This document shows positions 34,994 to 43,705 of a DNA stretch of 64,000 nt, piece by piece; position 1 is the stretch's first letter; every line of letters starts with the position of its first letter. A model generated the notes under the pieces. That model had not been told where the DNA came from and did no database searches. It worked only from the letters and a program-made list of their open reading frames with translations. Source of the stretch: Coniochaeta sp. PMI_546 (taxonomy: Eukaryota > Ascomycota > Sordariomycetes > Coniochaetales > Coniochaetaceae); contig MU271145.1 in the NCBI GenBank assembly GCA_021432605.1, forward strand, positions 2,480,001 through 2,544,000, written 5' to 3'. The position numbers were made by a program, and so were the translations under genes.

Positions 34994-35994
34994 TGTGGTG
35001 GTAGGTGATGAGGGCGGATGGGAGCTAGAGCTTGCGAAAATGCACTAAGCACAAGGTTACGTAGGTGCCCTGCCGTTTGTGTTGCTGTTGAGTCGCTTCT
35101 GTCCGTTCTTTGCTGGGGATTGTATAATGTTCTGGAGCTGCACTGAGGTCGCAAGTTTGAGGTTGAGCTCGGGCAAAGGAGAGGGTTCGGCAGTATTCGT
35201 AACTGCCAGATATGGAAGGCGGTGAGGACTTAGACCTGTTCTGGATGTTCCTTCCTTCCACCCTCAACATATCAACAAAGTTGGTATCTCTCGTTTCTTT
35301 CTTCTTCATCTCCAAGGTCGTAAGCGAAGTAAGCGAAGTCGTTTCGTGGGAAGGAGCGGTTACGTACCAATCTCTCCATTGCGCAGTACTCATATTCAAA
35401 AGACGCCATGGTCTCCTACCTGCGCTTCAACCTTCAACTGTCCGCTCCCAACCTCGCCACATACTACAACCCTTCTCTCATATCCTTGACCACTTGCTGA
35501 ACTTTCTTTGACTTCCGTTCTCTTCTGCAATTTGCTACGGCTTCTAGGGTCTCGTGGCTTCGGCGCTCAGAGGCATTTGCATATAACTCTGTCTCTCTGT
35601 CATCCAGCCCATTTTCCAAATCGACTTCTTCCTTGTGTCAACTTTCTAGGAACTATCTAAGGCTCTGGCTGACAGCTACTTTCACGTAATCGACTTTCAG
35701 GAAAGGGTTTCGGTCTCTCTGAACGTCGCTCGCTTCTTTGAGTCAAGTGTCCCGACAACAGGTCATCATGGTCTTGACTTAACAAATTTCTTCTAAGACG
35801 TTTCTTCTCATTGCTGAGGCCCAGGGATTGTGCGATTCCAGCGAATCGTCGTCCTTCATCACACTCACAAGACAGTGGTTCTCTCAAGCTCTCAAATTTA
35901 CCATATTACATCTTTTCTCAAAGCACGTCGTCTACCTACGCAATTCAAGTCATAAGCTCTCCATCGTCAGAAGGTTTTGGCGGATAGACAGACC
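34994..35994. other. Divergent promoter between CFIm25 and the GTPase gene
   Basis: About 1 kb of pyrimidine-rich sequence (plus strand from about 35400), typical of fungal 5' leaders. A small open frame with an excellent start context lies within it on the minus strand at 35272-35409 and is listed separately. Confidence 0.55.
35272..35409 (-). CDS. Candidate 45-codon small ORF upstream of CFIm25
   Basis: A 45-codon frame starts at an ATG in near-ideal context (GAGACCATGGCG) and ends with TGA at 35272-35274. Its product, MASFEYEYCAMERLVRNRSF followed by PRNDFAYFAYDLGDEEERNE, has protein-like composition. It begins about 415 bp upstream of the CFIm25 start on the same strand, so it could be an upstream ORF in that mRNA leader or an independent microprotein. 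A possible GTACGT donor lies inside it, so it might also be a first exon. Nothing shows that it is translated. Confidence 0.3.
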   Translation of the reverse strand: MASFEYEYCAMERLVRNRSFPRNDFAYFAYDLGDEEERNERYQLC

Positions 35995-38900
35995 ATGTCT
36001 AGCCCAACAGAGGAGGCTGCGAGGCCATCACAGTCGGCACTATGCCAGGATCTCCCTCCACCTGCCACAGTTACTCCGAAGACGGAAATGGGCAACGAAG
36101 AGTTGTACAGCATCCCTCCCATGTCTCCCATGGCTGAGAAAATGGACAACCACGCCACGAGCACTGCCAACGAAGACATAAACAACGTGAAGAATGAGAA
36201 CATCAACGACAACACCAATGGAAGGGCAGATGGACACACGAATGAGGGATCCCCAAACCCCCGGGTTGAGACGTTCACTAATTTGGAGAGAATCCGGTTG
36301 CCCGGCGTGGCGACAGAAACAGTTGGTGAAGGCGTCAAGATTGGACTGAAGACATTGGACAGCCTCCATACACTTCTTAACATTGAAGCCAAAGATGGCA
36401 ACGAAGCTGCACGTTGGTTGGGCAGATTCGCTACGATCAAGCAGAAACTGAAGGAAACTCGGACTGTCGTTGGGATTCTGGGAAATACGGGCGCCGGTAA
36501 GAGCACTCTGATCAATGCCCTTCTCGATGAAGAGAGCCTCATACCAACGAACTGCATGCGTGCTTGTACTGCCGTGCCGACTGAGATCTGCTATAACCAC
36601 GACGACAATCTCGAGCATCGCTACCGTGGCCAGGCCGAGTTCATCACCGAGGAAGACTGGCAGAAAGAGGTCAGCTTGTTACTCTCCGAGCTGATTGACC
36701 CTACCAAGAAGCTGTCTAAAGACTATCTGCAACCCGACACCGGCGCAGGCGTGGCATACGCGAAGATCAAGGCGGTCTATCCCAAGCTTAGCAACGAGAA
36801 GCTGGCAAAGAGCAGCGTCAAGGATCTCATGGACGATCCTGCCGTGAAAGATGTCTTAGGCTCAGTTAAATCGCACCAGAGGTCGAAAGCAGATGACCTC
36901 AAGACTGATCTTCAGATCTACGTCGACAGCCTTGAGAAGCATGGTCACGCCGCCCAGCCCAGGACTACCATGGCCTACTGGCCTCTAGTCAAGGTGGTGC
37001 GGATCTACCTCAAATCCAAGGTGCTGTCTACTGGCACGGTTCTGGTTGATCTCCCTGGAGTTCAGGACTCGAATGCTGCCCGTTCTGCTGTGGCCGAGCG
37101 GTTCAGGGCAGAGTGCTCGTCCATATGGATCGTGTCGCCAATCAACCGTGCTGTGGACGACAAGGCGGCCAAGCACCTCCTAGGGACATCTTTCAAACTA
37201 CAGCTGACCATGGACGGTAATTACTCGAATGTCACCTTCGTTTGCTCGAAGACGGACGAGATATCCATCAAGGAAGTTGCAGAGAAACTTGATGTGGACG
37301 GCGCTATCCGATCCATCTGGACAAAGGAAGAGGAATGCGGTCGCGATGTGTCAAAGTTGAAGCGTGAGATACAAATGCTGATGGAAGAGAGGGACGAACT
37401 CGACGAGATGAGGGATGAGCTCGAAGCTCAGAGGTCCAAGAAACGTAAACACGGCGAGCTCCATGATAGCGTCGATGGTCCAGATCAACGACTCGTGTCG
37501 CAGGACGTCGCTCCTTCAGCTACAATGGATGCTGGGGATGGAGGCCTAGAAGAAGAGACTGCGCACGTCGTGAAGGAGTCTGTGAGGATCCGCAAGCGGC
37601 TCAAGGAGTTGAAGGCACAGGTGTCGTCGCTTCAGGCAGAATGCACCCAGCTCAACATCGAAGCAACTGCGCGATGTATCGAATTGCGAAATGACTACAG
37701 CAAGGAGGCCATCCGTTCCGACTTTGCAGAGGGGGTCAGGGAAACTGTGGAGGATGCCGAGACTCAGCATGCGGGCGAGGCTCGACCTGCCGCCGAGCCG
37801 GACTATGCTCAGATCGCCGAGAGCCTGCCAGTATTCTGTATCAGCAGCCGCGGGTATCAGTCCCTCATGGGGAGGTCTCTCAAGGATGGTACTATTGGCG
37901 GATATCGGTGCCTAAAGGACACGCAGATCCCGCAATTGCAGGAACATGCCATGCGACTAGGTGACCTGGAGCTTGCCACAACGAACAAATCATTTCTGGC
38001 AGACCTGGCCGGGCTTATGCGATCTTTGCTGCTCTGGGCTTCTTGCAGTCGCTCTAGTGGCTGTTGTAACACAGAGACGCTGTCAGAGGACGAGATCTCC
38101 AAGCTGAGCCGCTTGAACACACTCATCACCACACTCCAGATGGAACTAGACAACTGGATCAAGCTTGCCATTACTGGAATCAGGACAAGGGTGAAGGATG
38201 AACTCCTCGAACCAATTTCGCCTATGTGTGTAAACGCGTCAGTGAACCTACCTGGTGTCGCTCTTGGATGGCCCAAGAACGGGAACGCCATTGGGGGCCC
38301 TCTGCGGTGGCCTACCTACCGCTCCATCATCCTTAACGGGTAGGCTACATGGTACAATGGTCATCATCAGTCACTTCACTGACGAATTCATAGGGGCCAG
38401 GGTGTCACGAGCAAGTCGCGGGGCATGAATTTCAATGATGGTAACTATATACTTTCGAGCGTGCACTAGCTGTGGAAATCTTACTAATTTCTCTCAAGAT
38501 CTGTTTGTTCCTCTCAAAAAGCGGATGGCATTGCACTGGGCCTCAGCCTTCAGCAGCATTTTCAACGATGGCATGACCGTCTATACATCGGGCGCGATAA
38601 AGGCACTCGGGAATTTCCATAAGCAGGTAATAGACTGCCAAGGGCTAGAATACTCCATTTCAGGGCAACTAGGATTGCTAAATGACCAGCTCTACGCCCG
38701 CATGCAATCTATTCAACAAGCTGAGGCGAAATTCAAGATTTTGGTCAAGCACAAGCAGCGGGGAGGTAGCCGCTGGTTTGTTGCGGCAATTGCGGGATAC
38801 ATGAAGGAAATCTATGAGCATTGCTCAACACTGTACGGTGTGTCTACTCGCTTCTATTACGCTTTCAAGCTCTGATCCTTTCATCTTCTTCTCGGCATCG

Positions 38901-39287
38901 TTTCCTCATCTCATTGCTTCCTGCTTGTCTATACCTCGTAACTAACATCAGGCAGGTCCCCGTTGCTTCGACCGAATGAAGCAGGCTATGGAAGACTTTG
39001 TTGACAAAAACCGCCAGGAGATCTTGACCAATTCGCTGGAGGCTGTGGGAAATCTGCTGGTCAAGATATGCTCGTCCTTTGAGAAAAAAATGAGGAAGCA
39101 CGCTGAGGAGGTCATACTTAAGATTAAGGAGGACTATCAGATGGCCATGCTCGGCCGTGAGATCGTCCTGTCGGGCACCGATGCTTCACCGTCTCTCCAC
39201 GCTGTGCAACAGAAGGTCTATGACATACTGCTCAAGGTGGACGGCCAGTTTTCGGATGTGCTTCGCGCCGCAGATGCCGTTCGGTGA
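35995..39287 (+). CDS. SLIP-GC-like large (dynamin-type) GTPase, 4 exons
   Basis: Exons 35995-38339, 38394-38440, 38499-38837 and 38956-39287 give 1020 residues; introns have CTAAT or CTAAC branch sites and short lengths (54-118 bp). After a disordered N-terminus of about 100 residues comes a GTPase domain: Walker A GILGNTGAGKSTLINALLDE (about residues 160-180), the G3 motif VLVDLPGVQDSNAARS (about 350) and a G4-like CSKTDEIS (about 418). An acidic/basic coiled coil with an SKKRKHGE nuclear-type signal follows (about 435-600), then an alpha-helical C-terminus, as in dynamin-like proteins. Fungal relatives are usually named nuclear GTPase SLIP-GC after the vertebrate germinal-centre protein. 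The function in fungi is unknown. ATG 35995 is the first in frame. The extreme C-terminus is the least certain part. Confidence 0.85.
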
Positions 39288-40338: not shown

Positions 40339-41556
40339 ATGGGCTCTACATCAGTCCTCACACCAGAGGAAAAGGAGCACTTCCTCGCCCATGGCTGGCT
40401 GAAGTAACACGCCCCAGACCTACATCGCCATGGATGCACTACGACTAATCACCATCACAGGATTCCCGGTGCCTTTACCCCCGAGCAGGCCGAAACCATC
40501 ACCAAAAATGTCTGGACACGGCTCGGCATGTCGCCGACAGACAAGAGCACCTGGAACCAGGTGCGCGTCAACATGCCGCACCACAGCGAGTTCGACGCGT
40601 CCGAGTTCGCGCCCCGGGCGTGGCAGGCCATATGCGAGCTGTGCGGCGGCGAGGAGCGCATCAACCCGGCGACCAAGATGTGGAAGGACTCGCTGATCGT
40701 CAACCTCGGCAGCGCCGAGCGCGAGGGGAAGCCGGTGCCGCCGCAGGACCTCGACGGGTGGCACGTCGACGGCGATTTCTTCGTCCACTACCTCGATAGC
40801 CCGGAGCAGGGGCTGCTGGTCATCCCGCTGTTTACGGACATCCTACCTAACGGCGGCGGCACGATGATCTGCCCTGAGGCTATTCCCAAGGTGGCAAAGC
40901 ATCTTTACGATCACCCCGAGGGAGTGTCGCCGCGGATGACGCCGAGGGGTCAGCCGGGATTTAAGCAAGAGAAGAATCTCGACTGGTTCAACGCGTTGGC
41001 CAAGGAGTCGACACACTTTGTCGAGGCTCACGGCAAGACTGGTGATGTGTTCCTGCTGCATCCTCTGATGCTGCACTCGGCCTCGAGCAATGCCCTGCGG
41101 AACGTACGGATCATCACCAACCCACCTATCAGTCTGAAAGAGCCGCACGTGTTCAACCGAGAGGATGGGAATTACAGCCTTGTCGAACTTGCCACCTTGA
41201 GGGCACTGGGCAAGGAGAAGCTAGACGACTGGAAGATCGCTGCTCCTCGGGAGGGCGTCGTTCCCGAGAGGCTCCGCGTACAGGAGAGGATGAAGCAGGA
41301 GGAGCTCAGGAGGCTGGCGGAGCTGCGGGCAGCAGCTATCGATGTCGAGCGGCAATGCGGTGTCATACTGCCCAACGGACAACCCTGCTCCCGCTCGTTG
41401 ACATGCAAGAACCACTCTATGGGGGCGAAGCGCGGAGTCCCGGGACGATCAGCACCATTCGACCAGCTTCTGGCGTCATACCAGGAGAAGAACCAGGAAA
41501 TGACGAAGAAAGCTGAGGCTGATGTTTCCTCGAAGGAGGTCTCTGCCTCGGCTTGA
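40339..41556 (+). CDS. PhyH-like Fe/2OG dioxygenase fused to a SCA7 zinc domain
   Basis: Exons 40339-40403 and 40461-41556 (57 bp intron, GTAACA donor, ACTAATC branch, CACAG acceptor) encode 386 residues. Residues about 8-245 look like a phytanoyl-CoA dioxygenase-type fold: [10 protein letters not shown] supplies the H123-x-D125 metal pair, [18 protein letters not shown] the distal His (probably H227) and the Arg for 2-oxoglutarate. A helical linker (about 285-315) leads to a SCA7 domain, residues 318-363: [20 protein letters not shown] then [19 protein letters not shown], with zinc ligands C321, C331, C337 and H340. SCA7 is known from ataxin-7 and Sgf73, where it anchors the SAGA deubiquitinase module and contacts nucleosomes. 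Both parts lie in one continuous exon, so the fusion is not a splicing artefact. Substrate and partner are unknown. Confidence 0.88.
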
Positions 41557-41974: not shown

Positions 41975-43705
41975 ATGGCCGACGGCGACGATGATTACGA
42001 GGTCGAAGAGCTCGCTCTACCGGAAGATGATCCTATGAGGAAGTTCCTACCAACATCCTTCGGCAAACAGAAGAGGGAAGCTAATATCGCCGCTCAAATC
42101 GAGCAGACCAAAAGAACTGCCGACAAGCCCGCGACGACAGCCAAAGCGAAGCCACAAGATAGAGAGAGCGACAGCGACGACGATGACTCGGACGACTCCA
42201 GCGACGACGATGACGAAGACGAGTACCCTGTATCACACGAGCTCGTGCTCAAGACCCACGAGCGCGCTGTCACGTCTGTATCGCTCGACCCAGCTGGAGG
42301 CAGGTTGATCAGTGGCTCCCTTGACTGCAACGTCAATCTACACGACTTTGCGTCCATGACGCCGACGACCCTCCGCGCCTTCAGAAGTGTCGATCCGTGG
42401 GAAACAAAGGCGTCGGCTGCCTCGTCAGAGTCGCACCCCATACACCATGTCCAGTTCAGCCACCTTTCCGGTAGCGTCTTCCTCTGCGTCACCGCCCACC
42501 CACAAGCCAAGATCATGTCGAGAGATGGCGATACCGTCACCGAGTTCGTGAAGGGCGATATGTATCTGCGCGACATGCATAACACCAAGGGTCATGTGGG
42601 GGAGGTGGCAACGGGTACTTGGCATCCGACCGACCCAAACTTGTGCGTGACGGCTGGCTCGGACAGCACCCTACGGATATGGGATATCAACTATAAACGG
42701 AGCCAGAAAGATATCATTGTCTTCAAGTCCAAAAGTCCTGGTACTGCGGGCCGGTCCAGGATGACGGCAGTGGCTTGGGGTGCTGCTGCGCAAGGCGGAA
42801 GCAATGTCCTCGTTGCTGCCGCTCTGGACGGCTCGTTGGTCATGTACAGCGGCAATGCGCCATTCCACCGTCCAACAGCAGAAGTCAACAAGGCACACAA
42901 ACCGGATACATGGACGGGTGGCATCGACATCAGTTCCGATGGTCGGATGGTTGTCACCCGGGGAGGGGATGGCTTGATCAAGCTCTGGGACACTCGCAAG
43001 TTCAAAGAGCCCCTCGTTACGGTTGAGCATGCGTCGACATCGGACAGATACCCCATGACCAACATCAAATACTCTCCAACATCTACCAGCATTATTACGG
43101 GGTCGGCAACCGGCCATCTGCACATTTTGAATCCGGGCAACCTGCAACCAGAGCATGTCACTCCCATTACACCCGGGGCGCCGCTCATTGTGGTCGACTG
43201 GCATCCCAAGCTCAACCAAATCATCACAGGCTCGGCCAACTCCGAGATACACGTGCTGTACAACCCTACCATGTCTACAAGAGGTGCCGTCGAGGTCATG
43301 TCCAAGGCGCCGAAGAAGCGGCACATCGACGACGACCCCGCCCTTACCATGGATCAGACCTTGGGTATGTCCGGCGACTCTATTGTGGTGCCGGGCAGCC
43401 AATTGCATGGTAACAGGAAGGGAGGCGTGACGGCATCAGGGAAGTCAAGAGACCCGATGAGACCGCAGGTGCAGCAGATCACGCCGTTTATGAGGAGTCA
43501 GCCTGACGAGAAGCACATTTCGGAGAACATCCCGCTAAGTCGCATGCTCCATGAGGATCCGAGGGAGGCCTTGCTGAAATATGCCGATGTCGCCAAGAAG
43601 GACCCCTTGTTCACGAATGCGTGGAAGTCGACTCAGCCGGTGACGCAGTATGCCGAGTTGAGTGACGAGGAGGAAGGGCCTGATAAGAAGAAGGTAAAGC
43701 GTTGA
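41975..43705 (+). CDS. wdr70: WDR70 homologue (WD40 repeat protein)
   Basis: Single exon, 576 residues. The N-terminus MADGDDDYEVEELALPEDDP and the FLPTSFGKQ segment are typical of the WDR70/gastrulation-defective-1 family, followed by a Ser/Asp-rich acidic stretch (about residues 60-90). A WD40 propeller spans about residues 85-440, with repeats such as SGSLDCNVNLHDF, TAGSDSTLRIWDI and TRGGDGLIKLWDT. The C-terminus carries APKKRHIDDDPALTMDQTLG and a DPREALLKYADVAKKDPLF block also seen in orthologues, ending with a basic KKKVKR. WDR70 proteins act in the nucleus and have been linked to histone H2B ubiquitination and DNA end resection in fission yeast and human cells. No oddities seen. Confidence 0.93.
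   Translation: MADGDDDYEVEELALPEDDPMRKFLPTSFGKQKREANIAAQIEQTKRTADKPATTAKAKPQDRESDSDDDDSDDSSDDDDEDEYPVSHELVLKTHERAVTSVSLDPAGGRLISGSLDCNVNLHDFASMTPTTLRAFRSVDPWETKASAASSESHPIHHVQFSHLSGSVFLCVTAHPQAKIMSRDGDTVTEFVKGDMYLRDMHNTKGHVGEVATGTWHPTDPNLCVTAGSDSTLRIWDINYKRSQKDIIVFKSKSPGTAGRSRMTAVAWGAAAQGGSNVLVAAALDGSLVMYSGNAPFHRPTAEVNKAHKPDTWTGGIDISSDGRMVVTRGGDGLIKLWDTRKFKEPLVTVEHASTSDRYPMTNIKYSPTSTSIITGSATGHLHILNPGNLQPEHVTPITPGAPLIVVDWHPKLNQIITGSANSEIHVLYNPTMSTRGAVEVMSKAPKKRHIDDDPALTMDQTLGMSGDSIVVPGSQLHGNRKGGVTASGKSRDPMRPQVQQITPFMRSQPDEKHISENIPLSRMLHEDPREALLKYADVAKKDPLFTNAWKSTQPVTQYAELSDEEEGPDKKKVKR

Follow-up and report, generated by a model that had tools for sequence, protein, structure and literature searches.

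The window, the whole 64,000-nucleotide stretch of Coniochaeta sp. PMI_546 DNA analyzed here, carries on its + strand one gene (40339-41556) that after splicing encodes a protein of 386 residues. Residues 1 to about 296 form a PhyH-type Fe(II)/2-oxoglutarate oxygenase, and residues 311-368 form an SCA7 zinc domain. The oxygenase-SCA7 fusion is real and present at these positions, bearing out the proposal of the initial annotation that one protein combines a complete SCA7 with a metal site of the PhyH type.

Read unspliced, the ATG at 40339 leads at once to an in-frame TAA, which lies inside an intron. A script search that took GTA or GTG donors in the first 300 nt and acceptors 30-250 nt downstream returned three splice solutions that keep the frame open. 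We chose the 57-nt intron (40404-40460, + strand; GTAACA...CTAAT...CACAG) because it is the only one that retains, on both sides of the junction, a stretch aligned with the bacterial N-termini; across the junction, the fungal protein continues like the bacterial ILSQQQAEHFLEHGFVAIKGCFSRDVAE. With this predicted splice, exon 1 (40339-40403, + strand) encodes residues 1-21 plus two bases of codon 22 and supplies the N-terminal helix of the oxygenase, with which the bacterial N-termini align. Exon 2 (40461-41556, + strand) encodes the remainder of both domains and ends in TGA. The locus had been described as a single long exon, which is right insofar as exon 2 carries both domains, whereas the first 21 residues sit on a separate exon, giving two in total. 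The residue numbering given there for H123, D125, H227, R235, R238, C321, C331, C337, and H340 is correct on the spliced protein.

There is only an exceedingly small chance that the one-protein reading is wrong, whether through a gene-model or assembly artefact or because two transcripts are made. Exon 2 comprises 364 codons without a stop and stays open across both domains. In addition, the SCA7 bases differ from those of the Sgf73 locus in the same genome at 32 of 168 positions, indicating that the fusion SCA7 did not arise through mis-assembly of that locus.

Upstream of the fusion, a dynamin-type large GTPase is encoded at 35977-38343 (+ strand; Dynamin_N, E 2.1e-14), and the two ORFs that follow, at 38435-38875 and 38976-39287, perhaps represent later exons of the same gene, which would then extend to 39287. 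A WD-repeat protein gene (41975-43705, + strand; WD40, 65.7 bits, above the cut-off) starts about 420 bases past the fusion. Its best special model is THOC3, with a score far under the THOC3 cut-off.

The oxygenase domain and its bacterial relatives

Against the Pfam PhyH model (PF05721), the fusion scores 21.6 bits (E 2.8e-4), just below the gathering cut-off of 22 bits, a value reached by three of the six bacterial relatives scanned. The fusion gene was absent from the list returned by a whole-genome PhyH search of its own assembly. The same search gave six matches at five other places (G000:C2, C1, C18, C3, and C6), separate from the fusion. An NCBIfam scan produced a chance-level match alone (E 0.21). 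The oxygenase half is matched by a bacterial homologue at E 8.9e-74 in one genome, and from such homologues we consider its identity as an oxygenase firm despite the sub-cut-off PhyH score.

The family alignment contains 38 rows, corresponding to 34 distinct sequences after four duplicates were dropped. H123, D125, H227, N232, and R238 are invariant in all 34, the fungal sequence included. H123 and D125 belong to the HxD metal motif H123-V124-D125 (40762-40770, + strand), H227 is the distal metal ligand (41074-41076, + strand), and R238 (41107-41109, + strand) is the presumed 2-oxoglutarate ligand. The initial annotation had made its proposal depend on retention of the HxD...H triad, which is kept throughout; the site it had outlined with R235/R238 stands for H123, D125, H227, and R238, while R235 is variable. 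N103, W122, F129, H131, D134, S135, E137, Q138, D148, G154, T156, S261, and E264 are also invariant, in all 38 rows. Since the HxD motif, the distal histidine, the asparagine, and the arginine are kept in all 34 distinct sequences, the enzyme is probably active. Iron would be held by H123, D125, and H227, and 2-oxoglutarate probably by R238.

The fusion shares the HxD...H...R metal and co-substrate pattern with solved PhyH oxygenases (PHYH 2a1x, GriE 5nch, FtmOx1, EctD, and PHYHD1 2opw). It differs from them in the attached SCA7 and in a signature proper to its subfamily, WH[VK]DG[DS]xFxHxxDSxEQ. In a profile search of PDB sequences, the family was linked weakly to GriE (E 0.011), PHYHD1 (E 0.05), and PHYH (E 0.089). 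A further idea, a PHYHD1-like demethylase of 2'-O-methyl nucleosides placed near chromatin, draws on one study. There, free 2'-O-methyl nucleosides were demethylated by PHYHD1 and by related PhyH enzymes of bacterial, plant, and animal origin and from a fungus, and RNA was not acted upon (PMC12709175). The latter observation speaks against this idea, as does the family profile, which reaches PHYHD1 only over a partial stretch and falls short of close kinship. We hold it to be very improbable.

An AlphaFold model of exon 2 with 10 bacterial rows had a pLDDT of 80.7; values fell below 50 at exon 2 residues 312-330, within SCA7, which was poorly modelled. The oxygenase alone gave a pLDDT of 86.6 and a pTM of 0.85. 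Foldseek returned human PHYH as the top match of the first model (E 1.9e-5) and GriE as that of the second, oxygenase-only model (E 4.6e-5). Among the 50 best PDB matches listed for the second model, the Foldseek probability was 0.95-1.00, with TM scores of 0.28-0.48 and rmsd values of 7.1-18.5 Å. For the double-stranded beta-helix of solved members, a match that the initial annotation had named as a test, the models thus suggest that the fold class is recognized, with weak superposition and no close structural match. These 50 matches are 2OG oxygenases or halogenases known as small-molecule or carrier-bound enzymes.

Relatives were sought in prokaryotic, viral, and plasmid collections; the fungal search covered the fusion's own assembly alone. 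Scanning 84,980 species genomes yielded 10 loci. Five are from metagenome-assembled genomes (MAGs; Actinomycetes, Anaerolineae, Chthonomonas, Verrucomicrobia, and one titled 'bacterium') with best segments 42-45% identical, and five are from Streptomyces with 30-31% identity. Aligned over the oxygenase, the five MAG proteins are 40-48% identical to the fungal domain. A search that used an alignment as its query matched, at E ≤1e-20, 15 of the 298 genomes from the Anaerolineae MAG's class and 30 of the 291 from the Chthonomonas MAG's phylum; both counts take in the genomes that supplied query rows. Two scans of viral_contigs found no relative of the oxygenase, and none of the phage records matched it. 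Plasmid records gave 26 matches, and the 10 listed have 27-29% identity.

The bacterial PhyH subfamily (L013-L017 and relatives) has the same N- and C-terminal helices and conserved residues as the fungal oxygenase, but its proteins lack SCA7 and stop where the fungal SCA7 starts. We know of no substrate for this conserved subfamily. Of 24 bacterial neighbourhoods laid out, the target gene was recovered in 21, the other three being lost to a simple ORF picker, and no neighbour family is common to more than seven of the 24. Seven of the 21 loci (L013, L048, L049, L051, L052, L060, and L061) have, at most three ORFs away, a gene that serves the uptake or breakdown of sugars or peptides, or a regulator of such a gene. 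The neighbour Pfam scan behind this count covered eight proteins at five loci, with L049 and L051 judged by protein starts resembling those of L048 and L052; the oxygenases of L048 and L049 are identical. This signal is too weak to name a substrate. Downstream of the matches at L019-L021, which are distant Streptomyces relatives, stand two conserved long ORFs that presumably resemble B12/radical-SAM enzymes, perhaps in a natural-product cluster.

That the bacterial relatives work without SCA7 lends weight to a purely metabolic oxygenase, in which SCA7 would serve merely as a folding, pairing, or localization module and the site of action would not be chromatin. The sugar- and peptide-related neighbours point weakly the same way.

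The SCA7 domain and the separate Sgf73 gene

The SCA7 domain (41326-41499, + strand) matches Pfam PF08313 with 99.1 bits (E 1.3e-28; cut-off 23) over model positions 11-68 of 68 and has the C, C, C, H pattern. We take C321, C331, C337, and H340 to be the zinc ligands. PDB chains of Sgf73, ataxin-7, and 'SCA7 domain-containing protein' match residues 293-378 only, with E values from 1.5e-23 to 1.3e-8.

SCA7 occurs at two places in the genome, the fusion and G000:C3:1817761. The gene at the latter has an N-terminal exon with a CxxC...HxxxC finger that matches PDB chain 9ynu_Q, a 'SCA7 domain-containing protein', at 7.4e-46, and on this resemblance we take it as the true Sgf73. A separate Sgf73, for which the initial annotation had suggested looking, is thus found, and its presence indicates that the fusion is not SAGA's Sgf73. 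A Pif1-type helicase adjoins the Sgf73 gene (L006:318-3107, + strand; Pif1_2B_dom, E 1.1e-13, in the second exon). In Neurospora, the knockout of NCU07579, 'Hypothetical protein (SCA7)', appears in a table from a screen on alternative oxidase, as does SPT8; NCU07579 may be either Sgf73 or the fusion (PMC3484665).

The two SCA7 copies are identical at 44 of 56 residues (79%) and at 136 of 168 bases. Such similarity, together with the four presumed ligands kept in the fusion, looks as if a binding surface had been retained. This argues against the metabolic reading introduced above, which we regard as somewhat unlikely. The fusion shares a complete SCA7 with Sgf73 and ataxin-7. Compared with Sgf73, however, it has no N-terminal deubiquitinase (DUB)-module finger and no match beyond the linker and SCA7, and it carries the oxygenase in front instead.

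The junction follows a pre-existing element of the oxygenase. A linking helix is predicted by AlphaFold at residues 291-320 (41266-41355, + strand), running to about residue 320 before SCA7 begins. The stretch VVPERLRVQ (residues 288-296) at its start is common to the bacterial enzymes and the fusion. Several bacterial relatives end in a (V)VPERxRxQ stretch followed by a charged helix, and the fungal protein retains both. The joining of SCA7 left the catalytic domain whole.

We also considered how the fusion may have arisen. In a tree of 34 sequences, in which the fungal row is the sole eukaryote, the fungal oxygenase is placed amid bacterial rows, weakly supported (89/74) and with a long branch (1.22). 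An old transfer from bacteria is one reading that would fit this placement. A bacterial origin of the family, if correct, would imply a first substrate other than a histone. For SCA7, 29 of the 44 codons that encode the same residue in the fusion and its own Sgf73 are identical; four codon-usage tables predict 16.9 to 20.8 (p 0.0003 to 0.005). The stretch VILPNGQPC is present in both copies, and 9ynu and 6tb4 differ there; SAPFDQLL of the fusion is closer to 6tb4. Together these comparisons hint that SCA7 may have been copied or partly gene-converted from Sgf73, a suggestion on which, without a control from other gene families, we do not rely.

Proposed action at chromatin

Work by Bonnet in 2010 reportedly found SCA7 dispensable for the entry of Sgf73 into SAGA. 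According to a review, Sgf73 residues 1-104 are the part present in the minimal deubiquitinase module, a C-terminal fragment of Sgf73 provides the link to SAGA, and SCA7 is a reported nucleosome-binding domain (PMC8080568). Nucleosomes are bound by Sgf11 and Sgf73 according to another paper (PMC5190139). By analogy, SCA7-mediated nucleosome binding by the fusion is plausible.

The initial annotation had suggested that SCA7 could bring the enzyme to SAGA or to nucleosomes. The SAGA route was not supported, the fusion matching Sgf73 at the linker and SCA7 alone and lacking the N-terminus that assembles the DUB module. The presence of SCA7 without the other parts of Sgf73 makes nucleosome tethering outside SAGA a better reading than SAGA recruitment. 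The protein hydroxylation activity proposed at the same time found no positive support either. What favors an oxygenase that modifies histones or other proteins, or one recruited by SAGA, is that the other SCA7 proteins met with in this analysis are Sgf73 and ataxin-7. Against it stand the missing finger, the close relatives, which are proteins without SCA7 from bacteria, organisms that have no nucleosomes, and the 50 best fold matches, known as small-molecule or carrier-bound enzymes. We judge such an oxygenase decidedly unlikely.

We give about an even chance to the following overall reading: the fusion is an active Fe/2OG oxygenase of the PhyH subfamily with an Sgf73-type SCA7, is most likely held on nucleosomes independently of SAGA, and has most likely a small molecule as its substrate. 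In the scheme we infer, catalysis, zinc binding, nucleosome binding, and nuclear location would come together in one protein. SCA7, mounted on the helix already present in the bacterial enzymes, would most likely hold the protein on nucleosomes without SAGA, and oxidation, probably of a small molecule, would thereby be placed in the nucleus, at chromatin. A bolder extension is that an oxygenase of bacterial type was taken up by the fungal lineage and gained a copy of the nucleosome-binding SCA7 of the host Sgf73. The product would modify chromatin itself without SAGA, would respond to oxygen and 2-oxoglutarate, and would belong to none of the JmjC, TET, and ALKBH families; we think this unlikely.

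Both domains are of known kinds, and what seems new is their joining. Among the open-literature matches listed, we found no description of an oxygenase-SCA7 fusion, although domain databases may list the architecture. By their titles or the starts of their abstracts, papers pairing SCA7 with phytanoyl-CoA deal with ataxia in humans, Refsum disease, or disease of the retina, and the one on 'SCA7 domain-containing protein' concerns, by its title, chicken cell vesicles. A further paper names a PhyH family member (PMC9769655).

If SCA7 tethers the enzyme to nucleosomes, the fusion would represent a metabolic-type oxygenase with a chromatin address outside SAGA. SCA7 would then be a portable nucleosome tether, and oxygen and 2-oxoglutarate levels would be linked to fungal chromatin by a non-JmjC route. 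The finding also highlights a conserved bacterial oxygenase subfamily.
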